Assembly (NCBI GenBank): GCA_013003715.1
Contig: JABDIN010000081.1
Location: 1-62,123, forward strand
Length of the DNA: 62,123 nucleotides
Origin: Desulfobacteraceae bacterium
GTDB taxonomy: Bacteria; Desulfobacterota; Desulfobacteria; Desulfobacterales; Desulfosarcinaceae
Direction: 5' to 3'
Positions 3,371 to 50,686 of this stretch are shown one piece after another (positions within the stretch are counted from its first letter, which is position 1; the number at the start of each line of letters is the position of its first letter). Below the pieces are notes generated by a model. That model worked only from the letters and a program-made list of their open reading frames with translations, was not told the DNA's origin and did no database searches. The position numbers and the translations under genes were made by a program.

Positions 3371-4057
3371 TTAGGCCATGGCCTCCGGTCGGGGTTGGCG
3401 TTGCTGGCGGGAGGCTTTCAGGGCTTGCAGTTCCTCTTCCAATCGCGATTCCGTTATCATGTCCTGAAATTGTTCTTCCAGGCCGTGATTGCGGTCTCCA
3501 TTCACCAGATCCACTTCAGCGTCCATCCGGTCCAGGCGTTCTTCGAATTCATCAAATCGCATAATGGATTCAAAGGAGTCGGAACGGCGGATTTCTTCCT
3601 GGGCCCGCCGTGCATGATGGGCACGAACATACCGGTGGACGAGGATACGCTGTTTCTCACGGGCGCTGACCAGTTTTTCTTCCAAAAGGATGATGTCTTC
3701 ACGATATCGATCCACGATGGCACTGTGTTCGCCGGCCTCGAGTCCCAGGGATTCCACGATACGGCTGATCCTGTGCTTTTCCTTGAGGGCTTGTTTGGCC
3801 AAATCATCCCGTCCTTTTTCAACGGCTATTTCCGCTCGCATCTCCCAATGCCGTTCGCGCGATTGCAACCGGTCAAGACGGCGGCCGATGGTTTTTTGTT
3901 CGGCGATCGCGGCAGCGCAGGTGGACTTGAGTTCCACCAGTGTGTCTTCCATTTCATAGATCATGTGTTGAATCAGTTTTTCCGGATTTTCCGCCCGATC
4001 CAGCATGCTGTTGATGTTGGAATTGATGATATCGCGAAATCGTGTAAAAATACCCAT
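3371..4057 (-). CDS. pspA: PspA/IM30 family membrane-stress protein
   Basis: 228 residues, the usual PspA length. It opens with an amphipathic helix (MGIFTRFRDIINSNINSML). The conserved AENPEKLIQHMIYEME segment follows, then long charged heptads forming a coiled-coil hairpin, as in PspA/Vipp1/IM30. These proteins bind and stabilise the inner membrane, and in E. coli PspA also inhibits the activator PspF. GGAGG lies at good spacing upstream of the ATG. A -24/-12 promoter lies about 45 bp upstream and pspC follows. No pspF or pspB gene is visible in the window. Confidence 0.9.
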   Translation of the reverse strand: MGIFTRFRDIINSNINSMLDRAENPEKLIQHMIYEMEDTLVELKSTCAAAIAEQKTIGRRLDRLQSRERHWEMRAEIAVEKGRDDLAKQALKEKHRISRIVESLGLEAGEHSAIVDRYREDIILLEEKLVSAREKQRILVHRYVRAHHARRAQEEIRRSDSFESIMRFDEFEERLDRMDAEVDLVNGDRNHGLEEQFQDMITESRLEEELQALKASRQQRQPRPEAMA

Positions 4058-6070: not shown

Positions 6071-9000
6071 ATGAGTATGTGTATGAAAAAAAATATTCCC
6101 GGACGTTTCGCACGAACTGTCATGGTGTGGCTGCTGTTTTTAATATCAGCGGCCGGTCACACAATGGGGGCGGACACCCCTCATGTGGACAAGACACCGG
6201 CACCCCAATGGGTGCATCGGTATGAAATTGTTCCGGCAACCCGGATTCCCCTCGAGGAAATCCAGGACGGTGAATATTTTCTCCATGTCGACCGACAAAT
6301 ACGTGTAACTACCGGTGATCCGGTTGCCTATTTCTATCGATTCGCTGTCCTCATCGTCAATGAAACCGGTCTGGAAAGGGCCTCTCAGATCAGCATTACC
6401 TTTAATCCGGATTATCAACAACTGGCGCTGCATTCCCTGAACATCGTTCGTGATGGAACCGCCATTTCCCGGCTTGATGAGACCTCCCCGCAGTTGCTTC
6501 GCCGGGAGGAGCGAATGGATTCGCTGATTTACGATGGCCGGTACACCACCAACCTGATCGTACAGGATGTGAGGGTCGGCGATATCCTTGAATACGCATA
6601 TACCATCAGCGGCGACAATCCGATCTATGACAACATCTTCTCCTATCAAATACGCACATCCTGGAGCGTGCCGGTAAAACAATTTGATTTCAGGCTGCAT
6701 TGGCCCCGGGATCGTCAACTTCACGAGAAGCGTCTCAACACCACCCTGAATCTCCACAGCGATACGGAAGGTGATTATCTCACCTATGGGTTGTCCCAGT
6801 GGGATGTCAACGCCGTGTACCGACATTCCCAGACCCCGTCCTGGTACCGGACATACGGTGTGATTCAATTGTCGGAAACCCGGCAATGGTCCGATGTTGT
6901 CCAGTGGGCATTGCCCCTCTACGCCGTCGCATACGAATCGCAACCCGTGATCGACCGGATTGCCGGGTCGCTGGTGACCCCCGGAATGTCGAACAAGCAG
7001 AAGGTGCTTGCCGCGTTGAACTATATTCAAAAGGAGATCCGGTACCTCGGTATCGAAATCGGTGTCAATTCGCATAAACCGAGAGCACCCGAAGACACGG
7101 TGGAAAAACGCTATGGCGACTGCAAGGATAAATCCGTTGCGGTGGTGTCGCTGTTGAAATCCATGGGTATATCCGCACACCCGGTACTGGTGCACACCTA
7201 TGACACCCGCAATATAAAGGACCTTCACCCGACCATCAATGCCTTCAATCATGTCATCGTTCGCGTCGATGTCGATGGGGAACACTATTGGCTGGATCCG
7301 ACCCGGGTATATCAGGGAGCCGACCTGGACCATATGTTTCAACCGGATTATGGATATGCGCTGGTGATTGCGCCGGGTGAAAACGATCTTACGCCCATGC
7401 CGGACAATGCCCATCTTGCAAAAACCAAGGTGGAAGAGACCTTCGATCTGTCGGACGGTCCCGGCCACCCCGCATACTATACGATAATATCCCGTTACAA
7501 CGGTCTCGATGCCGAAGACAGGCGCAGCCAGATCGCCGAAGACGGTGCGCAGCAAATACAGAACAGCTATATGGATTTCTATCGTAAATACTATCCGAAA
7601 CTTGAAGCGCGAATGCCCATGGAGATCAATGATAGGATAGACGCCAATGAATTATGGACCATCGAAAAATATATAGTAGAAGACTTCTGGCAGGCGGATG
7701 AGCGTGCTTCGGAATGGACGGCATCATTTTATACCAACATCATCGATTCATACCTGAGTAAACCGTCCCAGCGGCAACGCAGTGAACCGTTCCGGCTGAG
7801 TCATCCTGTAAATGTCCATCAGAGAATAGATGTCCGGCTTCCGGAACCATGGAATATCAGTGAATTTGATGCAAGTGTTAAAAACACTCATTTCGCGTTC
7901 TCTGCAAAGGTCGCATATGATCCGGACGCCACTTCATTTTTCATGGATTACCACTACCAATCCCTCGCCGAAGCCGTCCTGCCTGAAGAATTGGACGATT
8001 ATATGAAGTCCGTCGACAACGCTTCGGAGCACCTGGATTATGAACTCTACACCCCTTTTGAAGGTGTACCGGCCGGTGTTGAAGATGATGAGAAGCCCAA
8101 TTGGTTTGCCGAAAATGCAGACATCCTGTTGATCGTGGTATTGGTGGTCCTGGGGTTGTACGCCATCGTTGAATGGCTGGTGGACACCAAACGGCCCGGT
8201 TTCCCGGAACCCGGTGATTTTTATCCGGTATCCACCGGCAAGTATGTGATCCTGTCCATCGCGACCATGGGGATATATTCCTTGTACTGGTTTTACCGGC
8301 AGTGGAAATATATAAAACAGCGTGACGACAGCCCCATGCTCCCCTTCTGGCGGGCATTTTTCCTGCCGTTCTGGTTCTATTCGCTTTTCAGGGAGATGCG
8401 TGCGGATAGTGAAAAACGCATGGGAAAATCCATACTGCCGGATGGCGTGTGGATGGTGCTGTTACTGATTGTCTACATCGCCACCAACCTTATGGACCGT
8501 CTTGACGGTATTTTTGTATTCATCAGCACCTTGAACCTCCTTTGTCTGTTGCCATTTCTCAATTACACCCAATACATAAACCGCACCCGGCAGGAATTTA
8601 TTTCATTTAATTCGCGCTTCAGGCCCCGCCATTACCTGTTAAGCGTCTTTGCCGGCCTGATCCTGGCCTATTCGCTGTCGACCACCCTGAACTGGATGCC
8701 CAGCGGTGAGGTGGTTAAGGGCGCCCAACTGCCGGAATGGAATATCAAGTTCATGCAACGGAACGGGCTGGTGCAGAACGAAAAGGAACTCCTCTACTTT
8801 TACTCGGATGCGTTCTGGTCGTATAAAGATGACGGCAACGGTATCACCGACAGCAAGATATTTTCCTACTGGCGGGACGAGATCACAGGAGGTCTGAATG
8901 TGAGAACCGCCGAATACAAAGATATATCCGACATCGAGGTCGATTATGGTGCCGAGGAAGGGGATACCACCGTTATCACCGTCCAGCATAGAACCGAGTC

Positions 9001-37604: not shown

Positions 37605-38153
37605 TCAGGAGCCTCTCATATTTTTGTTCTCATCATTGTTTCGAAAAATGTTGTTTATCCGGGGTTGCAGAAACCATATGCCGACGACATAAAACCACGC
37701 GGCGATGAATGTGCCGGTGTAATCCTGAAACCGGACTTTACGCTTCCGTTCCACCGTGACGATGAGTTTTGCCGTGAAATACAAGGCGAAAATATTACTC
37801 ATGATGGATACGATGTGTAAGGGCAGCAGATAGTCCATCGGGATGATGTCGTAGATATAAAAGACAGGGTAAATCACGATATACCCCATACAGACCTTGA
37901 ACCGGCCGATCGGGACGTCCAGAAAATCAGCATATTTTTCGTAGATCAAGGAGCCGACACTATACAGCCAGAACAGCATCACCCACAACCCGGACAACAG
38001 AATTGTTTTGGACAGGAACATATCATGGGATTGGGCGGGCAAGATAATAAATGAAACAAATGGGATCACCATCAGGGTGAACATCTGGCCGGCCTGGGCG
38101 GTTACGAAAAAATATCTGATTTTATTATACATATGGTCAGTTATATATCCCAT
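37605..38153 (-). CDS. Hypothetical multi-pass membrane protein
   Basis: About 182 residues with five to six TM helices and short loops. I do not recognise the family. Two starts are possible: ATG 38153, which lies inside the last codons of the LuxR/Fe-S regulator gene, or ATG 38132 just past that gene's stop; neither has a strong ribosome site. Overlap with the regulator implies coupled expression, so the protein may act with it. Confidence 0.55.
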   Translation of the reverse strand: MGYITDHMYNKIRYFFVTAQAGQMFTLMVIPFVSFIILPAQSHDMFLSKTILLSGLWVMLFWLYSVGSLIYEKYADFLDVPIGRFKVCMGYIVIYPVFYIYDIIPMDYLLPLHIVSIMSNIFALYFTAKLIVTVERKRKVRFQDYTGTFIAAWFYVVGIWFLQPRINNIFRNNDENKNMRGS

Positions 38154-39078
38154 GGGTCGCCGCCCACACCGAAGCCTGGGTGCGATCGTTGACACCGAGT
38201 TTGTTGAAAATGTGCGTAACGTGGCTTTTCACGGTGTGTTCGGATATATGTAAAACTCCGGAAATGTCCTTATTGGTGAGCCCGTCTGCCATCATTTTTA
38301 AAACCTGGGACTCCCGTTGTGTGAGGGGCGCGGGCAGCCGGATGTTGGCCGCATGGAAATTAGCGGTGCCCTTGCGCTCAGCCGCGGACAGGCGGGATTC
38401 CAGTGACTTTATCAACGACTCCTTCCGGCTGATCTTTTGCCGAAGCCGTCGGGTATCGATATCCAGTGATACGGTCCGGATGCAGTTGCCGTCCCGGTCA
38501 TAGATGGGGAATGTTGCTTTTTCCTCCACCGGCGGATCCAGATGGGGGCATTCCACGGTTAATGTCCGGTTGCGGGCAAGCGCCGCGGCAAAAGCGAGGC
38601 AGGTGGTATATCCACATTCCCCGCAATTGGTGGCGGGCAGCAGGCGGAATATATCCACGGGTGACGCCGGTTTGTATTTCCTATGATCAGGCGTGATGTC
38701 ATGAACTCTTTTTTGGATGCCGATGATAAACGTCGATAACCGGTTTAGATATTCAATGGCCTCCCCTATGTCCCAGGCAGGCGTGAATGCACCGTGCCGG
38801 GGGTGAAATGCGCAGAGGCGATCGGATAGCAGGAAGCGGATGTAATCCGGTTTTTCATAATACTGGGCGCCTTCCACCACTGCATTGATATACGGAAATA
38901 ACGGCGATATATCCCAGTCCAGATTAAATTTCGCCCCCCGCGATCCACAGCTGTCATCCACACCGCAGGGCACCGGACCGGTCTGAATCAGGGACAGGCT
39001 TCGGAAAGCAAATGTGAAATCCCGGTTCTCAGTATAACCTGGATTTTTTTGTATGTTGTCTTCAGCACATGTGGTCAT
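38137..39078 (-). CDS. LuxR-type transcription regulator with 4Fe-4S domain
   Basis: 313 residues in three parts. The N-terminal domain (about 1-140) carries PVPCGVDDSCGSRGAKFNLDW. A 4Fe-4S motif follows, NCGECGYTTC followed after 16 residues by C (C-x2-C-x4-C-x16-C), as in the corrinoid Fe-S protein / PF04060 domain. The end is a LuxR helix-turn-helix (LTQRESQVLKMMADGLTNKDISGVLHISEHTVKSHVTHIFNKLG). It is probably a redox- or metal-sensing activator or repressor. The DUF3786 gene transcribed divergently has the same Cys motif, and a 20-bp palindrome lies between them. GGAGCCGTCAGT precedes the ATG. Confidence 0.8.
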   Translation of the reverse strand: MTTCAEDNIQKNPGYTENRDFTFAFRSLSLIQTGPVPCGVDDSCGSRGAKFNLDWDISPLFPYINAVVEGAQYYEKPDYIRFLLSDRLCAFHPRHGAFTPAWDIGEAIEYLNRLSTFIIGIQKRVHDITPDHRKYKPASPVDIFRLLPATNCGECGYTTCLAFAAALARNRTLTVECPHLDPPVEEKATFPIYDRDGNCIRTVSLDIDTRRLRQKISRKESLIKSLESRLSAAERKGTANFHAANIRLPAPLTQRESQVLKMMADGLTNKDISGVLHISEHTVKSHVTHIFNKLGVNDRTQASVWAATHGIYN

Positions 39079-39177
39079 ACTGACGGCTCCTGTTCTGGTG
39101 AGGATCGTAAACCTGATGTGGATGATCATAGGGATATCCCGGGCCAAAATCAATTTTTTTTGGTCAAAAATGAGACG

Positions 39178-39197
39178 AATCCCCCATTCGGGGGATT
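39178..39197. promoter_or_regulatory. Candidate operator between the LuxR/Fe-S and DUF3786 genes
   Basis: AATCCCCC-ATTC-GGGGGATT is a perfect inverted repeat of 8-bp arms in the 221-bp divergent region. No T-tract follows and no convergent transcription meets here, so an operator is likelier than a terminator. The adjacent dimeric LuxR-type protein is the natural candidate ligand; this assignment is inferred from position only. Confidence 0.5.
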
Positions 39198-39299
39198 GCA
39201 AATGCTATTGCACCGGCTATGATATAGACCATCGTTTTTCGGACACCAACTAAAGCCGGCCACCGGATGGTATTCAGGAAAAAAAACAGGAGGGACCTC

Positions 39300-40109
39300 A
39301 TGGCTCAGTTCAAAAATTTGATGGAGATATTCAAATTATTGAATAAAACCAATTGCCGGAAATGCAACGAGACCACCTGTCTGGCCTTTGCCGCCGCTGT
39401 TTTCAAAGGAGAAAAACAACTGGCGGCGTGTCCGGACCTCGACCCCGGGATAATAGCGCAATATGGCGTACAGGAAAAACGGCAATCCGGATATGAAGCG
39501 GATCTTGAAAAAGCATTGGCATATTTAAAAAGTGAAGTCAGCGCGGTGGATTTCAGCACGGCCGCGAAACGGATCGGGGCGGTCAGCGCCAACGGGAAAC
39601 TGACCCTGAAGGTGATGGGCAAAGATTTCAGCGTGGACAATAAGGGGTATCTTTATTCGGATATTCATGTGAATCCCTGGGTCACCATCCCCATATTGAC
39701 CTATATTTTGCAGTGTAAAGGGTCGCCGGTGAACGGAAAATGGATGCCGTTGCGCGAATTGCCCGGCGGTCAGGAGCGGTACCGGCTGTTTGCCCAACGA
39801 TGTGAAAAACCATTAAAAAAATTGGCCGACACCCATACGGAATTGTTTGAAGACCTGGTGGATATTTTCAATGGCAGACCGGTGGAAAACCATTACCAGT
39901 CCGATATCGCCATCGTATTGCAGCCACTTCCCCTGGTGCCCATGCTGGTGTGTTATTGGAAACCCGAAGACGGCATGGCGTCGGATCTGAATCTCTTTTT
40001 TGATGCCTCCGCACCGGACAATCTTGGTATGGATGGTATCTATGCACTCGGCACCGGTATTGTAAACATGTTCGAAAAATTGGCCTTGCGTCACGGCGTT
40101 GTCCAATAA
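39300..40109 (+). CDS. DUF3786 protein with N-terminal 4Fe-4S domain
   Basis: 269 residues. The N-terminal 45 residues hold NCRKCNETTC followed after 16 residues by C (C-x2-C-x4-C-x16-C), the same spacing as in the divergent LuxR regulator. The rest is a DUF3786 domain, with DNKGYLYSDIHVNPWVTIPILTYIL and GIYALGTGIVNMFEK near the end. DUF3786 is frequent in anaerobes with corrinoid or Wood-Ljungdahl enzymes; its role is unknown. AGGAGGGACC before the ATG at 39300 sets the start. It heads a three-gene rightward unit. Confidence 0.8.
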   Translation: MAQFKNLMEIFKLLNKTNCRKCNETTCLAFAAAVFKGEKQLAACPDLDPGIIAQYGVQEKRQSGYEADLEKALAYLKSEVSAVDFSTAAKRIGAVSANGKLTLKVMGKDFSVDNKGYLYSDIHVNPWVTIPILTYILQCKGSPVNGKWMPLRELPGGQERYRLFAQRCEKPLKKLADTHTELFEDLVDIFNGRPVENHYQSDIAIVLQPLPLVPMLVCYWKPEDGMASDLNLFFDASAPDNLGMDGIYALGTGIVNMFEKLALRHGVVQ

Positions 40110-41437: not shown

Positions 41438-43870
41438 TTAATTCATAAAACTGTAAAATGCCTCCCGGTTTTCGTGGGAGAGGGTGATGGCACCGTCGGT
41501 GACAAGACCCCAGAGACAGTCGGCCACATGCGCCTCGTCTTCTTTGAGGACAGCGGCCAGGTCGGCGAGCCGAAGGGCCTGCCGTTGATCGGCCAGGATT
41601 CGGACCAGCCGTTGTCCCAGGTACTCCTCTTCGAGAACAGCGGAGAAATCCCGGTCATATTCCAGGGCATGCCGTTGATCGCCGCGATAGTCTTTCTCCC
41701 AGGGGCGGCGAAGGCCCGCAGAGAGCAGATGTCGAACCCGTGTGTTGTTGCGAATCAGATCATAGATGGATTCAAGTTTCTCTACATTATCCGCTGACCT
41801 CGGGATGGGCCCCATCAACGCTATCGTCCGTGCGAAACTCTCCACTGTGAGGATGAACTCTTCGGGTTTGTTCAGGTCTGCATGGGCCAATGCGATGCGC
41901 TGCCGGTTGAAACCCGCCAGGGTCAGTAATTTTTTAATGACGTTCACCCGGCTCCAGGCATGGTCCACGCCGTAACTGTGGTGGCACTCCTCGGGAAGGC
42001 ACCCGACGAGGATTACACCGGGCGCGCCTTCCATCAGCGCACGCGCCATGATGCACGGATCGATTTGCCCCACACAGGGGACACCGAGGATGTGGACACG
42101 CGGGTCATATTTCAACCCTTTTTTACCCGCATTATCCGCAGCTGGCAGCCCGCCCCATACACACCCGATAGCCATGACTTCGTCTTGTGCCAGTTGGCCG
42201 GCCAGGGACGCCACCCGTGCCTCGCGTTGATCGTTGCTGTTGTTCTGCAGGGTGAGCGCATGGTACGGGCAGGCGGCCGCACAGGTGCCGCCGCCCGTGC
42301 AGACCATGGGATCCACCACCCGGGGCAAACCGCCGCGTGTGCCGTCGACAATACCGATACCCCCGCAATCACAGAGTTCCTGGCATTGCCCGCATCCGAT
42401 ACACAGATCCGGATCCACTACGCAAACCACCCGGGGAACCCGCAAGCGGCCTTCCGATGCATTTTTAACCATCTCGGCGGTTTTGGTTCCGGCGCGCCGG
42501 CCCTGATTCAAGGATTCCTGAAGATCACATGGATAACGGGCACTGCCGGCCATGTAGGTTTCTTCCCGTCCGACCATTTCGGGCCGCACCTTGGCATGAT
42601 GACCGGTGAGAAACCGTTCTTCCTTGTGCACCAGGCCGAGAATTTCGGCGGTGGCGGCCGTTTCTTTACCCAGCAGCCGAATGGGTGATAGTACAAGATA
42701 GTCCCAGTTCAGTTCATGTTCCACATGGTCGGTCAGGCTGCAGAAGGTGACCACGCTGTCCTGGACTGTGGGCTGGATGGCTTTGTCGTAAGGTATCCAG
42801 AGAATACCGAGTTTCCGGTTCACCACACGTTCTGAAGCGGACAAAGGGATTTCCATGTCCTGGTGATATAAAATCATGGTTTGTGTGTGCGTCGAGCATT
42901 CGCGGATATGCCTGGCCATGTGCCAGGCCGTGATGGCGGAGAGCTGGGCGAAATCCGATTGTCCGGTCTCATCATCGTTGACCCAGAAGAGGATACTCCC
43001 CTTGGGAGCCCCGTTTTCCCACATCAGCTCTTCCATTTCCGGTTGCGTCATGACCGTATTCCCATCGTATCCGAATTCGGGTCCCGGCGCCGCCATCTGC
43101 GCATCCAGGCACGCAATAATAGCGCCGGATTTGTATTTGATGGGGGATTCTTCTCCGTCTAATTCGAACCGCAGGGTATAATCACCGGTAACGCCGGACA
43201 GGCCGGTCAACTTCCCCGGCGGGATCACGGTGGCATGGGTGCTGGTGACGGCATCCGACACGATTTTTTTTATCCGGTCATAGTGGGGCCTTTCCCCCGG
43301 ATAAGAGCAGTGCAGGTGCCGGACCACGGCTTCGGGGTCTGTGGCCGATACCGCCAGAAAATAATCAATACCCTTTTGGGCCAGGCTCTGGGCCGCCGTA
43401 TACGATGCTATGCCATCGCCCACGACCATGACCGGGCCGTCGATTTTGGCCATGGTTTGTTGTGTCGGGCGCATGGCTGTCATCTCAGCAATAGCGGCAT
43501 TCACCAGCTTAGCTGATTTATTCGCTTTTTCCACTGCTGTTTGGTCGGATACCGCAGCCACATGCCCCCTGAGATTGACCATATCGATTTGTCCTTTATG
43601 CAATTCCAGATCGGCAAAGGCCTTTTCAAACTTTTTATTCATCAATCGTCCTTCACAGCCGGCCACAATAATCCGGTTCAGTTTTTTGCGGATGATTTGC
43701 TGGGTGATATGATCCACACCCGGTTGCAGGCAGGGGTAGGATAATATCTCGCAATGGCCCACGTGATCGCTTCCCGCGATGGTCTGCTCCAGTGTTTTTA
43801 AATCGATATGGGGGTCGATCTGGTTACCGCAGCGGCACAGGAAAACCCCGATATTTGCAATTTCGTACAT
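41438..43870 (-). CDS. HdrA/MvhD-like electron-transfer protein with altered FAD motif
   Basis: 810 residues. It starts like HdrA (GVFLCRCGNQID). An FAD-binding-like strand reads VVGDGIASY (about 145) where HdrA has GGGxAG. Two ferredoxin-type motifs lie near 490-540: CIGCGQCQELC is intact, while CTGGGTCAAACP lacks one of the four usual cysteines. An MvhD-like domain (about 565-690, GCVWGG, VPCVGQIDPC, GCLPEECHH) and a C-terminal winged-helix-like tail (about 740-810) follow. It probably relays electrons between NuoEF/HoxU-like partners upstream and an unknown acceptor. It is the last gene of the operon, 16 bp downstream of hoxU. GGAGG precedes the ATG. Confidence 0.8.
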   Translation of the reverse strand: MYEIANIGVFLCRCGNQIDPHIDLKTLEQTIAGSDHVGHCEILSYPCLQPGVDHITQQIIRKKLNRIIVAGCEGRLMNKKFEKAFADLELHKGQIDMVNLRGHVAAVSDQTAVEKANKSAKLVNAAIAEMTAMRPTQQTMAKIDGPVMVVGDGIASYTAAQSLAQKGIDYFLAVSATDPEAVVRHLHCSYPGERPHYDRIKKIVSDAVTSTHATVIPPGKLTGLSGVTGDYTLRFELDGEESPIKYKSGAIIACLDAQMAAPGPEFGYDGNTVMTQPEMEELMWENGAPKGSILFWVNDDETGQSDFAQLSAITAWHMARHIRECSTHTQTMILYHQDMEIPLSASERVVNRKLGILWIPYDKAIQPTVQDSVVTFCSLTDHVEHELNWDYLVLSPIRLLGKETAATAEILGLVHKEERFLTGHHAKVRPEMVGREETYMAGSARYPCDLQESLNQGRRAGTKTAEMVKNASEGRLRVPRVVCVVDPDLCIGCGQCQELCDCGGIGIVDGTRGGLPRVVDPMVCTGGGTCAAACPYHALTLQNNSNDQREARVASLAGQLAQDEVMAIGCVWGGLPAADNAGKKGLKYDPRVHILGVPCVGQIDPCIMARALMEGAPGVILVGCLPEECHHSYGVDHAWSRVNVIKKLLTLAGFNRQRIALAHADLNKPEEFILTVESFARTIALMGPIPRSADNVEKLESIYDLIRNNTRVRHLLSAGLRRPWEKDYRGDQRHALEYDRDFSAVLEEEYLGQRLVRILADQRQALRLADLAAVLKEDEAHVADCLWGLVTDGAITLSHENREAFYSFMN

Positions 43871-43886
43871 GACATACCTCCTTATG

Positions 43887-44492
43887 TTAGACCGCCAGTT
43901 GGGTCATCTCCATGGCGGGTTTTCCGCGTACCGTATCAAAGATGGACTGCATGGCCCCGGTGGGGCACACGCTTACACAACAGCCACAAGCCACGCATAC
44001 ATCAGTGGGCCGTAAAAAAGGGGAGCCGATTTTTTTGTGGACACCGCGATCCATGACGGCAATGGCCGACAGTCCCACCACCTCTTCGCATACCCTTGCA
44101 CACAATCCACATACCATGCAGTTCTGATCCGGATCATGAACCGGCATTTGAGTGGATACCACACCATATCGGGCGGCCATTTCACGAATTTCCTCACTGG
44201 CCGGGCATGTGGCGAGCAACATTTCGAATATCCAGCGTCGGACATTGTTGACCCGTTCTGTTTCGGTATGGACATCGATGCCTTCCTGGACGGGATAGAT
44301 GCAGGATGCCACCAGTTTCGACCAGTCCCCTTCTTTGAGTTCAACCATACATAGTCGACAGGCACCACTGGGTTTCACCGATTCGTGGTAGCAGAGTGTG
44401 GGGATGTCGATGCCGTAGTATCGGGCGGTTTCCAGCACTGTCCAGCCCGGTTGGGCGGATACCTTTTGGTTGTTGATGGTAAAGTCAATCAT
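43887..44492 (-). CDS. HoxU/NuoG-N-type iron-sulfur subunit
   Basis: 201 residues. An N-terminal [2Fe-2S] domain (PTLCYHESVKPSGACRLCMVEL) is followed by a His-Cys-type region (DVHTETERVNNVRRWIFEMLLATCP) and two [4Fe-4S] motifs (CMVCGLCARVCEEV and CVACGCCVSVCPTGAM). This is the subunit that joins the NADH module to a partner in HoxFU, NuoG and FeFe hydrogenases. No H-cluster or molybdopterin domain is present, so it is a connector, not the catalytic subunit. It lies 37 bp after nuoF and 16 bp before hdrA-like. GGAGG before the ATG. Confidence 0.85.
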   Translation of the reverse strand: MIDFTINNQKVSAQPGWTVLETARYYGIDIPTLCYHESVKPSGACRLCMVELKEGDWSKLVASCIYPVQEGIDVHTETERVNNVRRWIFEMLLATCPASEEIREMAARYGVVSTQMPVHDPDQNCMVCGLCARVCEEVVGLSAIAVMDRGVHKKIGSPFLRPTDVCVACGCCVSVCPTGAMQSIFDTVRGKPAMEMTQLAV

Positions 44493-44529: not shown

Positions 44530-46431
44530 TCAGCTGACCCGCACGGCATCGAATTTACAGGTTTCCCGGCAAATACCGCATCGGATACACTGGTCCGTAT
44601 CAATGGTGTGAGGTTCCTTTTTCCTGCCGGAAATACAATTGTTGGGACACTGCCGGGCGCAACTGGTGCAGCCGGTACATAGCCCGGGATCGATGGTGTA
44701 GGTGATCAGTTCCTTGCACACCCCGGCCGGACATGTCTGATTGTTGACATGGGCGAGATACTCGTCTTTGAAGTAACGCAGGGTGGTGAGTACCGGATTG
44801 GGGGCGCTGGACCCCAGGGCACAGAGAGCGCCGTCCTGAACCGCCTGGGCCAGGCTGATCAAATCTTCGATGTCCTGTTCGCTGCCGCGGCCCCGGGAGA
44901 AGTTGTCGAGAATCTCCCGCATGCGGGACAAGCCCAAACGGCACGGCAAGCATTTACCGCAGGACTCTTCTTCCAGGAATCGGAGGAAATACCGCCCCAC
45001 ATCCACTACGCAGTCACCCTCGTCCATTACAATCATGGCACCAGAACCCATCATGGAACCGGCCTTGGTCAGCGAATCGAAATCCACCGCTGTGTCCTTC
45101 AGGGAGTAGGGGATGCAGCCGCCGGATGGGCCACCGGTCTGAACTGCTTTGAACGGCTGGCCACCGGGCACGCCGCCCCCGATATCTTCGACGATTGCCG
45201 ACACCGGCACACCCATGGGGACTTCCACGAGGCCCACATTGTTCACTTTGCCGACCAGTGAGAACACCTTGGTGCCGGTGCTGTGGGGTACGCCCAGTTT
45301 TTTATACCAATCCGGTCCCTTGCCGATGATCAACGGTATATTGGCCCAGGTCTCCACATTATTGAGAATCGTGGGCCGACCCCATAATCCTTCTTCGACG
45401 GAGCGTACATACTTGGGCCGGGGATTGCCGGGTTTCCCCTCGATGGATGTGAACAACGCCGTGGATTCACCGCAAACAAAGGCGCCGGCCCCACGGTTGA
45501 TCCGGACATCGAAAGAAAATCCGGAGTTGAGAATGTTCTCACCCAATAGTCCGAGTTCTCTGGCCTGTACCATGGCGACTTCCAGGTGTTTGATGGCCAA
45601 GGGATATTCGGCTCGCACATACATATATCCTTTTTCGGCACCCAGGGCATACGCCCCGAGGATCAGGCCTTCCAAGACGGCATGGGGATCACCTTCCATA
45701 ATGGTGCGATCCATGAACGCCCCCGGATCGCCTTCATCCCCGTTAACCACAACATAAACCGGCCGTCCTTTTGTCTCGATGGCCTTCAGCGCGCTGCGCC
45801 ATTTGCGTCCCGTGGGAAAACCCGCACCACCGCGGCCGCGCAGTCCGGATTGTTCGATATGTTCCACTACCTGTTCGGCGGTCATCCCGGCGAGCGCTTT
45901 GGCCAGTGCCTGGTAGCCACCGGCGGCAATGGTATCGGCAATGTCCGTGGGATCGATTTTACCGATGTTGTGAAGAACCACCCGTTCCTGGAGTTTGTAA
46001 AAGGGGATATCCTGTTCATTGAGAATGGTGTCGCCGCTGGCGGGGTCCTTGTACAGGAGCCGTTTGACAGGCTCGCCTTTCAAAAGGGTTTTTTCGATAA
46101 TCTCGGTTGCGTCTTTGGGTTTGACCCGTTGATAAAATAACCCCCCCGGCCTGATCAGTACCAGTGGGCCGCGGGAACAGAATCCCTGGCAGCCCGTGGT
46201 TTTAATGCCCGGCATCACCTTGGCCTCTATTCCGGCGTCGGCAAGTGCCGTTCGCAAGGCGTCGCTTACCTTCTCACTCCCATTGGCCAGACAGCCGGTT
46301 CCGTGGCAAACCACGATTTCCGGGCGATTCGGATCACGGCCGCTCAAAATCTGTTTTTGCAGGGCCTTGAGGTCTTCGGCTGAGGTCAGACGCCAGTCTT
46401 CTATTTTTAACGCCTCACTCACATTAGACAT
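44530..46431 (-). CDS. NuoF/HndC-type NADH dehydrogenase flavoprotein subunit
   Basis: 633 residues. The N-terminal thioredoxin-like [2Fe-2S] domain (VVCHGTGCLANGSEK ... TTGCQGFCSRGP) precedes a NuoF core with the FMN/NADH motif GLRGRGGAGFPTGRKW and GDEGDPGAFMDR. The SLBB-type region and ESCGKCLPCRLGLSR follow. A C-terminal ferredoxin ends the chain (CTGCTSCARQCPNNC, CIRCGICRETCKFDA). This layout is that of HndC/HydB subunits of electron-bifurcating enzymes. It should oxidise or reduce NAD(P). The ATG at 46431 (AAGGAG 8 bases upstream) overlaps the nuoE stop region. Confidence 0.9.
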   Translation of the reverse strand: MSNVSEALKIEDWRLTSAEDLKALQKQILSGRDPNRPEIVVCHGTGCLANGSEKVSDALRTALADAGIEAKVMPGIKTTGCQGFCSRGPLVLIRPGGLFYQRVKPKDATEIIEKTLLKGEPVKRLLYKDPASGDTILNEQDIPFYKLQERVVLHNIGKIDPTDIADTIAAGGYQALAKALAGMTAEQVVEHIEQSGLRGRGGAGFPTGRKWRSALKAIETKGRPVYVVVNGDEGDPGAFMDRTIMEGDPHAVLEGLILGAYALGAEKGYMYVRAEYPLAIKHLEVAMVQARELGLLGENILNSGFSFDVRINRGAGAFVCGESTALFTSIEGKPGNPRPKYVRSVEEGLWGRPTILNNVETWANIPLIIGKGPDWYKKLGVPHSTGTKVFSLVGKVNNVGLVEVPMGVPVSAIVEDIGGGVPGGQPFKAVQTGGPSGGCIPYSLKDTAVDFDSLTKAGSMMGSGAMIVMDEGDCVVDVGRYFLRFLEEESCGKCLPCRLGLSRMREILDNFSRGRGSEQDIEDLISLAQAVQDGALCALGSSAPNPVLTTLRYFKDEYLAHVNNQTCPAGVCKELITYTIDPGLCTGCTSCARQCPNNCISGRKKEPHTIDTDQCIRCGICRETCKFDAVRVS

Positions 46432-46921
46432 GTCCATGCTCCTTTGTTTCGTTTTCCAGGTCATAATCCAGGGTTTTCAGGTGTTTTTCCAATTTTTTGG
46501 CTGTCATGTTGGACAGATACTCTTCATCCACCACCACCACTGGAGCCAATGCACATGCCCCCACACAATTGACCGTGCTCAATGTGTATCGCAAATCTTC
46601 GGTGGTGCCGCCGGCCGCAACATTCAGCCGCCGTTCCACTTCTTCCACGATTCGTTGGCCGCCTTTGAGGTGGCAGGCGGTCCCGAGGCACACCCGTACC
46701 TCGTGCTCGCCCCTGGGATCCAGCCGGAACGATTGGTAAAACGTCGCCACCGAATATCCCTGGGTCAGGGGCACACCACTGTAATCGCACACCACTTTCA
46801 TGGAATCTTCGGATATGTATCCGTATGTGGATTGGATATCCTGGAGCATGAAGATCAGATACTCAGGTTGCCCGGGATAACGTTCGACAATTTCATCCAA
46901 TGTTTCGACCGATTGGCTCAT
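46424..46921 (-). CDS. NuoE/HndA-type [2Fe-2S] subunit
   Basis: 165 residues in the 24-kDa thioredoxin-like fold. The cluster ligands are CLGTACHLKGG and, later, CVGACALAPVVVVDEEY. It supports electron transfer next to the NuoF flavin. It is the first gene of the operon nuoE-nuoF-hoxU-hdrA/mvhD-like, and its stop overlaps the start of nuoF by 8 bp. AAAGGAGAG lies before the ATG, and a sigma-54 promoter is located 72-87 bp upstream of the start codon. Confidence 0.9.
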   Translation of the reverse strand: MSQSVETLDEIVERYPGQPEYLIFMLQDIQSTYGYISEDSMKVVCDYSGVPLTQGYSVATFYQSFRLDPRGEHEVRVCLGTACHLKGGQRIVEEVERRLNVAAGGTTEDLRYTLSTVNCVGACALAPVVVVDEEYLSNMTAKKLEKHLKTLDYDLENETKEHGHV

Positions 46922-46992
46922 TATTCTCTCCTTTGATGTCCGATTCTGGTATCACGCGAACGATTCTGTCCGCATCTGTTGAAAGGTGACAG

Positions 46993-47008
46993 AGCAATTG
47001 GCGTGCCC
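46993..47008 (-). promoter_or_regulatory. Sigma-54 promoter of the nuoE-nuoF-hoxU-hdrA operon
   Basis: Read leftward, GGGCACGCCAATTGCT has GG and GC separated by exactly 10 bases, with CAC and TTGC elements intact (only the first T of TGGCAC is changed). The transcript start should be near 46983, leaving a leader of about 60 bases. The enhancer-like repeat at 47090-47109 lies about 117 bp upstream of that start. Confidence 0.8.
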
Positions 47009-47089
47009 AGTTTGTAAGTAGCTGTAATATAATAAAAATAATCTCATGCGAAGGGGGCCGCGGCTCGGGAACGCCGGTATGTACCGCGG

Positions 47090-47109
47090 TGAAACAATAT
47101 GGTGTTTCA
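47090..47109. promoter_or_regulatory. TGAAACA-N6-TGTTTCA enhancer site (nuoE promoter, proximal)
   Basis: A perfect 7-bp inverted repeat with a 6-base spacer, about -117 from the predicted start. This is the typical position for a bacterial enhancer-binding protein. The same half-site occurs upstream of the neighbouring activator gene, which supports recognition by one or both PAS sigma-54 activators. Confidence 0.7.
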
Positions 47110-47184
47110 ATCCTGTTCACAGGGGGAGTGAAGCGTTTTTGGTAGCTTCGGGTATACGTATAATTTTCAGATATTTATTGACCT

Positions 47185-47215
47185 TGAAACAGGTGTTGAA
47201 ACACCGGTGTGAAAC
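47185..47215. promoter_or_regulatory. Cluster of three TGAAAC half-sites (nuoE promoter, distal)
   Basis: TGAAAC occurs at 47185, 47197 and 47210, in direct orientation 12-13 bp apart, around -200 to -230 from the predicted start. Together with the proximal palindrome this looks like a two-part enhancer that allows cooperative binding or looping. Confidence 0.5.
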
Positions 47216-47224
47216 GCGAATCGG

Positions 47225-48556
47225 TCAGATCAGGGCCGCTTCCTTCATCCGGCGCCACATGGAGGTCCGGCTGATGCCCAGAAGCGCGGCGGCCTCCTGG
47301 CGTCTGCCATTGCATTTGTTGAGCGCCCAGATCATGGTGGCTTTAGTGATGGCGGTTTTGTCGGTCCTTGATGAAGCCGGTAACAGGTGAGACGGGGGAG
47401 GCAGGTGGATTTGATCTTCCATATCAGGTAAATAGTGGGCGAAAATGACAGGACCTTTAACGAATACAAATGCATGTTCGATACATCGTTCAAGCTCCCG
47501 GACATTTCCCGGCCAGGAATAGGCGGTGAGGCGCTGAACGACTTTCGGGTCCACGGATCTCACCCGTTTATTGTATTTCTGATTAAACTGATGGATGAAA
47601 TGGTCCATGAGCAGGGGAATGTCCTCCGGCCGCTCGCGCAATGGTGGCAGATGAAGGGGAACCGTGCGCAGGCGGTAATAGAGATCCTCCCGGAACCGGC
47701 CCTCCGAGCGCGCCAGGTTCAGGTCCTGGTTGGTGGCGCTGATAATGCGGGCATCCAGGCGAATGGGCTGAGTTCCGCCCACGCGCTCGAATTCACGTTG
47801 CTCGATAATCCGCAGCAGTTTAACCTGAAGTTCAGGTTTCATTTCTCCGATTTCATCCAAGAACAAGGTGCCGTCTTTGGCCATTTCAAACCGTCCGGGT
47901 TTGGTGCGCTCAGCGCCGGTGAACGCGCCCTTTTCGTGACCGAACAGTTCGGATTCCAGCAGGGATTCAGCTAGCGCAGCACAATTGACGGCAACAAAAG
48001 GTCCCTTACGATGTGCCGATAACCGGTGCACGGCACGGGCAAGGAGCTCTTTACCGGTGCCGCTTTCGCCGCTGATCAGGACATTTGCTTCGCTGGAAGC
48101 CACATCGGTAAGCCGTGAGAAAATCATCCGCATGGACGGACTCCGGCCCACCAGTCCGGTAATCCGATGATCCCATGCCCCCTCATGCGTCGGGGTGATA
48201 GGGCCTTTACGGATCGAGCGAAATGTTTCGATGGCTCCGAGAACCCGGCCCTCGTCGTTTCGCATCACCCCCACATTTACCAACAGGATCTGGCGTTCTC
48301 CGCGCCGGTTGAAAGTGTTAATCTCCTGGTCCATTCGTGTTTCACCGGTTTCCATGGCGTGGCCCAGCGGGCAGTTTTTGCGGCAGCGGTCGGAGCGAAA
48401 CACATCCCAGCACTTTTGTCCGACCACTTCACGGGTGTTGAATCCGGTGATGTCGGCAGCCATACGATTGAAGGATGTGATGCGGAACTGCGGATCGATG
48501 GTGAACACCCCTTCGGGCAGTGTGGCGAATATGGTTTCGTAGTCAAAACAGCTCAT
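47225..48556 (-). CDS. PAS-domain sigma-54-dependent activator (A)
   Basis: 443 residues. A single PAS domain (about 8-120) contains [14 protein letters not shown] (C-x8-C-x3-C), a possible metal or redox centre. The AAA+ domain (about 140-370) has Walker A GESGTGKE and the sigma-54 contact loop GAFTGA. The C-terminal Fis-type helix-turn-helix reads [19 protein letters not shown]. Its own gene has a -24/-12 promoter and TGAAACA sites upstream, so it is probably autoregulated. It lies next to, and transcribed in the same direction as, the nuoE operon, its likely target. Confidence 0.9.
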
Positions 48557-48636
48557 GGTTTCAATGTTCCCGGGGGGTTGTTAGTTTTTATCGCATTCCG
48601 TCGATTCCAGCTTCCCGGTGACGGGAGGGTCTATAT

Positions 48637-48652
48637 TGCAAACCATGGGCCA
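48637..48652 (-). promoter_or_regulatory. Sigma-54 promoter of PAS activator A
   Basis: Read leftward, TGGCCCATGGTTTGCA has the GG and GC pairs exactly 10 bases apart. The predicted start is near 48626, about 70 bases before the ATG. The TGAAACAATTGTTTCA palindrome at 48739-48754 is about 120 bp upstream, the same distance as at the nuoE promoter. Confidence 0.75.
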
Positions 48653-48738
48653 CAAGTTTAACCAGCTGATTCAATGATAAATTTTAATCTACTTGGCGGT
48701 CGATGGGCGGGCTGGGCGGTATTGGGGGAAAAAAACCA

Positions 48739-48761
48739 TGAAACAATTGTTTCATGAAACA
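48739..48761. promoter_or_regulatory. TGAAACAATTGTTTCA enhancer palindrome plus extra half-site
   Basis: A perfect 16-bp palindrome (48739-48754) is followed directly by a third TGAAACA (48755-48761). It lies about 120 bp upstream of the predicted start of activator A, which fits an autoregulatory enhancer. Confidence 0.7.
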
Positions 48762-48849
48762 GTCAGGCGTCGTGCCGGCCTGGAGGGATTCCGATCAAAT
48801 AATAATGATATCGAATGGTTAATTAAAAATGGTCCATGTTTGGAACAAA

Positions 48850-48884
48850 TGAAACAGGTGAAACGCTATTGAAACAATGTTTCA
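48850..48884. promoter_or_regulatory. Distal TGAAACA cluster overlapping the activator B stop codon
   Basis: Half-sites lie at 48850-48856 and 48859-48864, then TGAAACA-A-TGTTTCA at 48870-48884. The last arm overlaps the stop codon of the PAS activator B gene. The group is at about -225 to -255 from the activator A start, mirroring the two-part enhancer at nuoE. Confidence 0.55.
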
Positions 48885-50588
48885 CTGGATATTCAGGGCT
48901 TTCATGTGCCGCCACAGCGAGGTTCTGCTCATTCCCAATGCAGCGGCCGCAAGCGTGCGGTTGCCATCGGTTTCAGCAAGTGCCCGGAATATGTTCTGCC
49001 GGCTGGGTTCGGTTTTGCGGTGTCTGCCTGCAATGAGCCGGGCTGATGCGCGTCGGCCGAACTCCTCGGATGCCGGCAAAAATCGCTTTAAAATCGTGGC
49101 GCCTTTGACAAATACATAGGCATATTCCAGGGTCCGCTCCAGTTCCCGGACATTTCCGGGCCAATGGTATTCCTGAAAAAAGGTCATGACATCCGGGGAA
49201 ACCGCGCGTACCTTCTTCTTATGCCGCTTATTCAGCAGGGTGATGAAATACTCCACCAGCAATGGAATGTCTTCGGGCCGTTCACGAAGCGGTGGGATGG
49301 TGAGCGGTACGGTTCGCAGCCGGTAAAACAGATCTTCCCTGAACGAACCCTGTGTCATTGCCATGGGCAGGTCCTTATTGGTGGCTGCGATGATGCGCGC
49401 TTTCATCGGCAGGGTCCGGGTACCGCCCACCCGTTCGAATTCTCTTTGTTCCAGCACGCGGAGCAGTTTGATCTGTATGTCGGGTTTCAATTCACCGATT
49501 TCATCCAGAAAAATCGTGCCGCCTTCAGCCATTTCAAATCGGCCCTGTTTGCTGTTTGTGGCGCCGGTGAATGCGGCTTTTTCATGGCCGAACATTTCGG
49601 ATTCCAGCAGGGATTCGGCAAGGGCAGTGCAATTCACCGCCACAAATGGTTTTCCCCTGCGGGAGGAATGGTTGTGGAGGGTTCGGGCGAACAGATCTTT
49701 TCCGGTGCCGCTTTCCCCGCAAATCAGTACATTGGCTTCACTGGCGGCCACATCCGGCAACATGGAGAAGAGATGTCGCATGGCCGGACTTTTCCCGACG
49801 ATGTTGGAGAACGTGTATCTGGACAAACCCGGTCCTGTCCGAATGCGTTCGCCCACCAGGAGGCGGAATGTTTCAACAGCACCTGCGATGTTGCCCTGGG
49901 TATCTTTGAGCACCCCCGCATTGACCAATATGGAGAGTTTTTTTCCCTGCTTGGTGATGATGCGAACATCCTGATCCATTGAAATCCGTCCTTTTTCAAG
50001 TGCAGTGCGCAGGGGGCAGCTGATATCACAAAGGTCGGAACGGAATATTTCCCAGCAATACCGGCCGATGACCTCCTCTCGGCTGTAACCGGTGATTTTT
50101 TCTGCTGTATGGTTAAACCAGGAAATTCGCCATTGGGTGTTTATGGTGAACACGCCTTCGGGAAGCGCCTCCAACAGGTAGTGGTGCTCACTGCTGGCCA
50201 AGTCGAGGTCGGGCGTGTGTGCACCGGGCCCGGGGTCCGCCGGGTTCAGCGACAGACTGACGGCGTCCTCATCGCTCTGACCGGTGAGCAGCGGATCAAT
50301 GCTGCAGACCATACGCTGCAATTCACCGGATGTATTGACGATTTGAACATGCAGATTCTTCACCGCCTCGTGCGTTGAAAAAACCTGTTCTATGGCCGCT
50401 GCGACTTTCTGGCGATCCGCCGGAATTATCACAGATTCAATTTTCCGGTTTTCCCCCAGGCGTAAATGTGTCCCGAGAAACCGGTTGGCCTTTTGATTGA
50501 AATGAAGGACCCGGTGGTCTTTTCGGATCAGCAGAATACCCGCATTCATACAGGTTGGTGCTGACGGTCGATCGAACGAATTATTCAT
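48882..50588 (-). CDS. PAS-domain sigma-54-dependent activator (B)
   Basis: 568 residues. There are two PAS-like domains (about 10-115 and 140-250); the second holds CWEIFRSDLCDISC (C-x8-C-x3-C), nearly the same as in activator A. The AAA+ domain has GESGTGKD and DEIGELKPDIQIKLLR, but the GAFTGA loop reads AAFTGA. The C-terminal Fis-type helix-turn-helix reads LAAAALGMSRTSLWRHMK, almost identical to that of A, so both should recognise the same DNA motif. The ATG at 50588 is preferred over a TTG 13 codons upstream. No sigma-54 promoter is evident before it. Confidence 0.88.
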   Translation of the reverse strand: MNNSFDRPSAPTCMNAGILLIRKDHRVLHFNQKANRFLGTHLRLGENRKIESVIIPADRQKVAAAIEQVFSTHEAVKNLHVQIVNTSGELQRMVCSIDPLLTGQSDEDAVSLSLNPADPGPGAHTPDLDLASSEHHYLLEALPEGVFTINTQWRISWFNHTAEKITGYSREEVIGRYCWEIFRSDLCDISCPLRTALEKGRISMDQDVRIITKQGKKLSILVNAGVLKDTQGNIAGAVETFRLLVGERIRTGPGLSRYTFSNIVGKSPAMRHLFSMLPDVAASEANVLICGESGTGKDLFARTLHNHSSRRGKPFVAVNCTALAESLLESEMFGHEKAAFTGATNSKQGRFEMAEGGTIFLDEIGELKPDIQIKLLRVLEQREFERVGGTRTLPMKARIIAATNKDLPMAMTQGSFREDLFYRLRTVPLTIPPLRERPEDIPLLVEYFITLLNKRHKKKVRAVSPDVMTFFQEYHWPGNVRELERTLEYAYVFVKGATILKRFLPASEEFGRRASARLIAGRHRKTEPSRQNIFRALAETDGNRTLAAAALGMSRTSLWRHMKALNIQ

Positions 50589-50686
50589 GATCCACTTTGA
50601 AACGAAATTCCATATCCAATCCGGCAATGTAACCCTGATTCTGATTCAATTCATTGTTCATTGCGGGTTCAGGTGAAAATCAATGG

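Follow-up and report, generated by a model that had tools for sequence, protein, structure and literature searches.

Genes of the locus

The window, meaning the whole 62,123-nucleotide stretch analysed here, belongs to a Desulfobacteraceae assembly that is 97% complete, with a genome size of 5.5 Mb. On the minus strand it carries, in this order, the genes for activator B, activator A, nuoE, nuoF, a NuoG-like/ferredoxin-like protein and an HdrA/FlpD protein.

48882–50627, minus strand: activator B; PAS domain with C-x8-C-x3-C, AAA+ domain with AAFTGA, Fis-type HTH; start uncertain
47225–48556, minus strand: activator A; PAS domain with C-x8-C-x3-C, AAA+ domain with GAFTGA, Fis-type HTH
46424–46921, minus strand: nuoE-like gene, thioredoxin-like [2Fe-2S] (PF01257, E 1e-46)
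44530–46464, minus strand: nuoF-like gene, start codon uncertain (PF01512, PF10589)
43887–44492, minus strand: NuoG N-terminal-like/ferredoxin-like gene (PF13510 and Fer4 families)
41438–43870, minus strand: HdrA-like protein with FlpD/MvhD domain (PF02662)

The PAS sigma-54 activator that the first-pass annotation had placed directly beyond the gap upstream of nuoE is activator A, in which PAS, AAA+ and Fis-type HTH domains are all recognized. Both activators match PF00158 (sigma-54 interaction AAA+) and PF02954 (Fis-type HTH), and sigma-54 itself is encoded in the genome (PF00309 match, E 5.5e-17). The NCBIfam models for FeFe hydrogenase A6, HoxU and NuoG score below cut-off on the NuoG-like/ferredoxin-like gene, as does the HdrA2 model on the HdrA-like/FlpD protein.

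Several neighbouring genes merit mention in their own right. Downstream of the operon, an open reading frame at 38137–39201 (minus strand) joins a LuxR-type HTH to a PF04060 Fe-S domain, an unusual combination; it adjoins a DUF3786 plus Fe-S protein at 39267–40109 (plus strand). A dinitrogenase-cofactor-like gene (PF02579; 50687–51073, minus strand) adjoins activator B. At L239, another locus of the same genome, an open reading frame (946–1347) that appears similar by eye to the PF02579 gene lies behind another bEBP gene.

The nuoE promoter and its enhancer

The region between nuoE and activator A (46922–47224) holds a sigma-54 box and two groups of half-sites, TGAAAC or GTTTCA according to direction.

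46993–47008, minus strand: sigma-54 -24/-12 promoter of nuoE, GGGCACGCCAATTGCT, 15 of 16 positions identical to TGGCACRNNNNTTGCW
47090–47109, no strand assigned: proximal enhancer of nuoE, perfect TGAAACA-N6-TGTTTCA, TGAAACAATATGGTGTTTCA, exact match
47185–47215, minus strand: distal enhancer of nuoE, three tandem GTTTCA half-sites, spacing 12 and 13 bp

The box has a single mismatch to the consensus and the exact GG-N10-GC spacing originally reported, with GG at 47007/47006 and GC at 46995/46994. Boxes with at most three mismatches are as frequent in the window as in shuffled sequence (88 observed, 94 expected), so the nuoE box alone is weak evidence. The enhancer is far more distinctive. Its palindrome, the sole exact N6 copy in the window, places half-sites at -115 and -101 from the C of the GC; the earlier estimate of a centre about 117 bp above the predicted start holds when the start is taken about 12 bp beyond the GC. 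The three additional half-sites noted before are likewise present, as a tandem array at 47185, 47197 and 47210, or approximately -196 to -221 relative to the C of that GC. The region thus holds five half-sites against a shuffle mean of 0.23, and none of 2000 shuffles reaches five.

The promoter of activator A

A second copy of the same box and half-site architecture lies upstream of activator A, where it was overlooked at first pass.

48637–48652, minus strand: sigma-54 box of activator A, TGGCCCATGGTTTGCA, 1 mismatch to TGGCACRNNNNTTGCW
48739–48760, no strand assigned: proximal enhancer of activator A, three half-sites including TGAAACAATTGTTTCA
48850–48884, no strand assigned: distal enhancer of activator A, three tandem half-sites and one inverted

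Eight half-sites occur in 48557–48890, against a shuffle mean of 0.30; none of 2000 shuffles reaches eight. The distal array adjoins the activator B gene at its stop codon. Judged by these elements, activator A is probably autoregulated, or else driven by B. Since box and array are found at A and none was seen at B in the window, B may act first.

Extent of the regulon in the genome

The palindrome TGAAACA-N0..10-TGTTTCA occurs at four places in the assembly. Three are at the two promoters described above, and the fourth, on contig C65, falls within a reading frame of 362 aa. Triple tandem arrays with half-sites 3–7 bases apart number just two in the genome, one at each of these promoters. Pairs in the same direction at that separation are found at 22 places, of which only four have a box with at most two mismatches nearby, all at the nuoE and activator A promoters. 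Among ten inverted pairs checked elsewhere, one (L011) has such a box, approximately 320 bp away; this check covered contigs other than C84, C93 and C110, and for the C65 pair the coding frame was the criterion. Conversely, an array with 9–13 bp spacing is absent from all seven exact-consensus boxes elsewhere in the genome, one of which (L239) has a pair of half-sites separated by 24 bp. Because arrays and palindromes are essentially confined to the two promoters, the regulon looks local, activator included. A wide regulon in this genome is rejected, half-site pairs elsewhere being almost all without a box.

Across the order, triple GTTTCA arrays occur in 45 of 291 genomes, and TGAAACA/TGTTTCA palindromes are present in 39 of 97 relatives. 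Twelve triple-array loci were opened in full; two carry A-type activators and ten do not. Many of the other arrays are simple tandem repeats. At L167, L168, L169 and L172, in other genomes of the order, GTTTCA arrays with 9-bp spacing lie near genes without A/B-type activators.

Conservation of the promoter in related bacteria

Two sets of related loci were assembled. The first was found by NuoE: matches of at least 70% identity occur in seven of the 29 other genomes of the family, and matches with E <= 1e-55 in 19 of the 291 genomes of the order, the window's genome counted. Family and order matches combined give 22 loci, window included. The gene order nuoE-nuoF-Fd-HdrA/FlpD is retained as far as the contigs extend, and an A/B-type activator is on the stretch at 18 of the 22 loci, window included. 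No activator above 100 bits is on the stretch at L098, L103 (where 428 bp upstream are available), L110 or L111; L098 has both box and half-sites. L110 and L111 are both nuoE/HdrA copies from genome G160 and have neither a half-site cluster nor a box. A blind k-mer count upstream of the remaining 20 nuoE genes, leaving out these two, returned GTTTCA as the top 6-mer (78 copies) and TGAAACA as the top 7-mer (58 copies). At L104, where nuoE is on the plus strand, an inverted repeat of approximately 40 bp that starts TGAAACTCTCAT and ends GAGTTTCAT is present three times (3713–3751, 6425–6463 and 6503–6541), with two copies between box and nuoE.

The second set was found in GTDB genomes with an alignment of 13 HdrA/FlpD proteins as query. 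It comprises 62 named loci, several on the same contigs as the first set, with titles spanning Desulfosarcina, Desulfatitalea, Desulfotignum and Desulfatibacillum to Desulfarculaceae, Dethiosulfatarculus and Desulfobaccales. nuoE is present at 40 of them. The scan of related genomes for the motif near -24/-12 boxes, proposed as a check on the original interpretation, bears out its promoter and enhancer: 30 of the 40 have a box with at most two mismatches no more than 320 bp from nuoE. These loci were selected by the box alone, and each of them has two or more half-sites within the 260 bp considered. Together these promoters hold 141 half-sites. Permuting the hexamer gives 119 other sequences, which average 3.7 copies and reach at most 33. 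They are not all independent, because some come from close relatives with near-identical site positions (L220/L227 and L214/L230). As a control, 22 nuoE paralogues of 35–43% identity have a mean of 0.09 half-sites per 400 bp and one box in total. The type strain Desulfatibacillum alkenivorans DSM 16219 (L208) carries the operator.

Activators accompany these promoters. One is found near 28 of the 30 box loci, as a full gene within 5.5 kb at 25 and as a contig-edge fragment at three (L190, L204 and L210). The two others, L193 (2.8 kb of sequence available upstream) and L227 (1.6 kb available), have box and half-sites and no visible activator by nuoE; the genome of L193 carries an A-type activator with its own array on a different contig (L166). 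The ten nuoE loci without a box follow a pattern of their own. At seven, nuoE begins 29–93 bp past the match to the activator, and half-sites lie within 700 bp before that match in all seven (a single one in L188), together with a box of at most two mismatches in six. The seventh, L189, has the array at the activator and no box within three mismatches. L223 has three half-sites at nuoE and no box within two mismatches. L216 and L235, from one genome, have no sites, no box and no activator.

Geometry of the enhancer

Measured from the C of the GC, half-sites at the 30 promoters peak at approximately -181 to -260 and again at approximately -81 to -140. In the far-zone bins, 57 of 66 half-sites read GTTTCA on the coding strand. 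None falls within 60 bp of the GC, and a single one lies between -80 and -61. The enhancer was first described as having two parts. This holds at the window and at the 22 of 30 promoters with sites on either side of -160; it fails as a universal layout, since eight have one zone, the nearer in six and the farther in two. At least three tandem GTTTCA half-sites 8–13 bp apart are found at 15 of the 30, and an inverted TGAAAC...GTTTCA pair 12–15 bp apart at 11. The pair of the window (-115/-101) is matched within 1 bp at L079 (-116/-101) and L082 (-115/-101).

Spacing in the first set is similarly regular: among 51 same-direction spacings of at most 35 bp, 23 are 9 bp, ten are 11 bp and five are 12 bp. 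The sample for spacing and shuffling comprised 25 promoter regions, including the two of the window, L164 and L166, which were found by the motif, and L083, whose box has three mismatches. In view of this make-up, the permuted-hexamer test on the 30 loci is the cleaner of the two.

An IHF-like element beside the -24 box

Both promoters of the window have a sequence resembling WATCAANNNNTTR, which we take to be the IHF consensus, next to the -24 box; the first-pass annotation did not list it.

47015–47027, minus strand: degenerate IHF-like element by the -24 of nuoE, TTACAGCTACTTA, 3 mismatches
48659–48671, minus strand: IHF-like element by the -24 of activator A, AATCAGCTGGTTA, 1 mismatch

When one mismatch is allowed, WATCAANNNNTTR occupies one fixed place just upstream of the -24 at 16 of the 30 orthologous nuoE promoters (mean 0.18 and maximum 2 in 500 shuffles). 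It is found at that place in none of seven other exact sigma-54 boxes of this genome, and, at the same stringency, in none of nine activator promoters of other loci. The genome has six HU/IHF-family genes, HU and IHF counted together. NifA promoters are an example of sigma-54 promoters assisted by IHF, with remote sites and a bend between enhancer and promoter. Here, in contrast, the IHF-like element directly abuts the -24 box, and TGTTTCA is the half-site.

The two activators

Cysteines C49, C58 and C62 of the PAS domain are invariant in an alignment of 26 related first-set activators and absent from one unrelated activator aligned with them; the incomplete activators of L080 and L108 were omitted from alignment and tree. 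In the second set, where activators above 430 bits within 5.5 kb of nuoE were counted, C-x8-C-x3-C is present in all 42 full neighbouring activators and SRxxxWR in 41, the single exception having masked sequence there. Since the activators were selected by similarity, conservation of the cysteines does not by itself imply a function.

Activators A and B carry the same recognition-helix signature in the alignment. The array accompanies a lone type A at L099 and a lone type B at L105; because each occurs alone with it, both types probably read the array. In most B-type proteins the sigma-54 loop reads AAFTGA or SAFTGA in place of GAFTGA, a first-position change that is not among the D. vulgaris variants in Table 1 of PMC4641369. 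Such a protein is the sole neighbouring activator at several loci, so the variant is presumably active. The AlphaFold model of activator A (13 sequences) has a mean pLDDT of 76.9 and a pTM of 0.53, and a PDB search with it returned the expected bEBP folds and no pointer to a PAS ligand. The activator tree is poorly resolved, with seven of 24 inner branches well supported, and no duplication order is therefore inferred.

Proposed mechanism and alternatives

The TGTTTCA/sigma-54 switch of the electron-transfer cluster in these anaerobic bacteria of sediment type is very probably genuine. Conservation, position and co-occurrence strongly support the original proposal that the nuoE operon is under sigma-54 control through TGAAAC/GTTTCA sites and the neighbouring activator; with its redox-sensing component included, the interpretation as a whole is partly supported. 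In established bEBP biology, an activated hexamer meets the sigma-54 holoenzyme via a DNA bend and opens the promoter. Starting from the observed sites, geometry, conservation and activator linkage, we infer binding, activation, IHF action and a cascade order, as follows. (i) One or both Cys-PAS activators would occupy the distal tandem array and the proximal inverted pair. (ii) A DNA bend, possibly made by IHF next to the -24 box, would join the activators to sigma-54 RNA polymerase. (iii) The activators would trigger open complex formation, and nuoE-nuoF-nuoG'-hdrA/flpD would be switched on. (iv) Through the like elements before gene A, A would be autoregulated or driven by B. As a prediction from sequence, it is highly likely that the Cys-PAS activators bind the TGTTTCA half-sites, drive nuoE-nuoF-nuoG'-hdrA/flpD via sigma-54 and feed back on A.

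An origin of the half-sites in chance, in a REP-type repeat or in a terminator following activator A is barely conceivable. The distal array does abut the activator stop codon at several loci, but arrays are also found before activator genes and between divergently oriented genes, and their numbers, positions, conservation and spacing, mostly 9–13 bp, speak against such an origin. Chance is rejected on the basis of shuffles, permuted hexamers and genome-wide counts; a terminator, REP or CRISPR-like repeats by position and conservation. It is also improbable, though less remote, that the TGTTTCA sites serve another regulator, such as a repressor or global factor, while an unrelated activator serves the sigma-54 box. 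The ten opened triple-array loci near genes without an A/B-type activator are in its favour, as are L193 and L227. The arrays nevertheless follow the activators closely. They precede the activator itself where nuoE closely follows it, accompany activators where nuoE is absent from the contig or stretch (L164 and L166, found by the motif), sit between the divergent activator and nuoE in Desulfatibacillum (L109), and are missing from the one genome in which both copies lack an activator; an activator or fragment is present at 28 of 30 box loci.

Within the preferred reading, control by the Cys-PAS activators, two points are less settled. The first is the signal. Redox sensing is plausible, the pointer being the invariant C-x8-C-x3-C of the PAS domain, and three invariant cysteines together with an NADH/HdrA/MvhD-type target make a redox or Fe-S signal a reasonable guess; a thiol switch or metal cluster on these cysteines would be the best guess at its nature. 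PAS domains bind many ligands, and the chances are evenly balanced that A and B sense a non-redox signal instead, such as a small organic ligand, a CoA ester or a metal; the three cysteines in 42 of 42 activators and the redox operon as target weigh on the other side. The second is the division of labour. That one of A and B alone acts on the array, its partner being inert or inhibitory, is a real possibility, if a little the less probable one. The loci with a lone A or B type and the same array are compatible with it, and there is a precedent in D. vulgaris, where one of the two co-localized activators DVU2956/DVU2960 bound (PMC4641369). The recognition-helix signature common to both types, each of which is found alone with the array, argues that either can read it.

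A fuller picture can be drawn tentatively, and is rather doubtful as a whole. The locus may represent an undescribed, widely conserved Desulfobacterota module in which Cys-PAS bEBPs read thiol/Fe-S redox state via C-x8-C-x3-C, B switches on A and A amplifies itself, so setting the level of an NADH-linked, possibly electron-bifurcating HdrA/FlpD complex.

Relation to known systems and significance

The available text of PMC4641369 describes one-component sigma-54 regulons of D. vulgaris that mostly comprise one to four operons. As here, they have an activator gene by the target, upstream activating sites and a -24/-12 promoter. The DVU2956 site has three conserved half-sites, comparable to the triplet here, and two activators can be co-localized with one promoter, comparable to the A/B pair (PMC4641369). 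The present system differs in its nuoEF-nuoG'-hdrA/flpD target and in its Cys-PAS pair, which are not described in that text, and neither TGAAAC nor GTTTCA occurs in the main text, that is, outside logos and supplements (PMC4641369). DVU3142-ohcBAC is alike in pairing a one-component activator with an electron-transport operon and a sigma-54 promoter; unlike here, the target is an octaheme cytochrome complex and the activator is divergent from it (PMC4641369). The NuoEFG-HdrA-MvhD operon of Desulfotignum phosphitoxidans is of the same type, an NADH module with HdrA and MvhD, and the available text describes no promoter or regulator for it (PMC4046663). No description of the operator or the activators was found in the literature searched, which lay outside figures, supplements and most subscription journals. 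The original observation is confirmed, and the TGTTTCA operon switch would be a new regulon built on the already known design of a sigma-54 activator beside its target.

HdrA/MvhD-type complexes are thought to share in electron bifurcation in these anaerobes, according to the text available of PMC5109826 and PMC4046663. The conserved operator, the activators and their candidate sensing cysteines provide a testable handle on an operon without a described regulator in the literature searched. In one survey, as far as its available text goes, the largest bEBP numbers are found in Desulfobacteria (PMC12316311). A motif and a target for one bEBP clade therefore help to decode others in the group that is richest in them in that survey.
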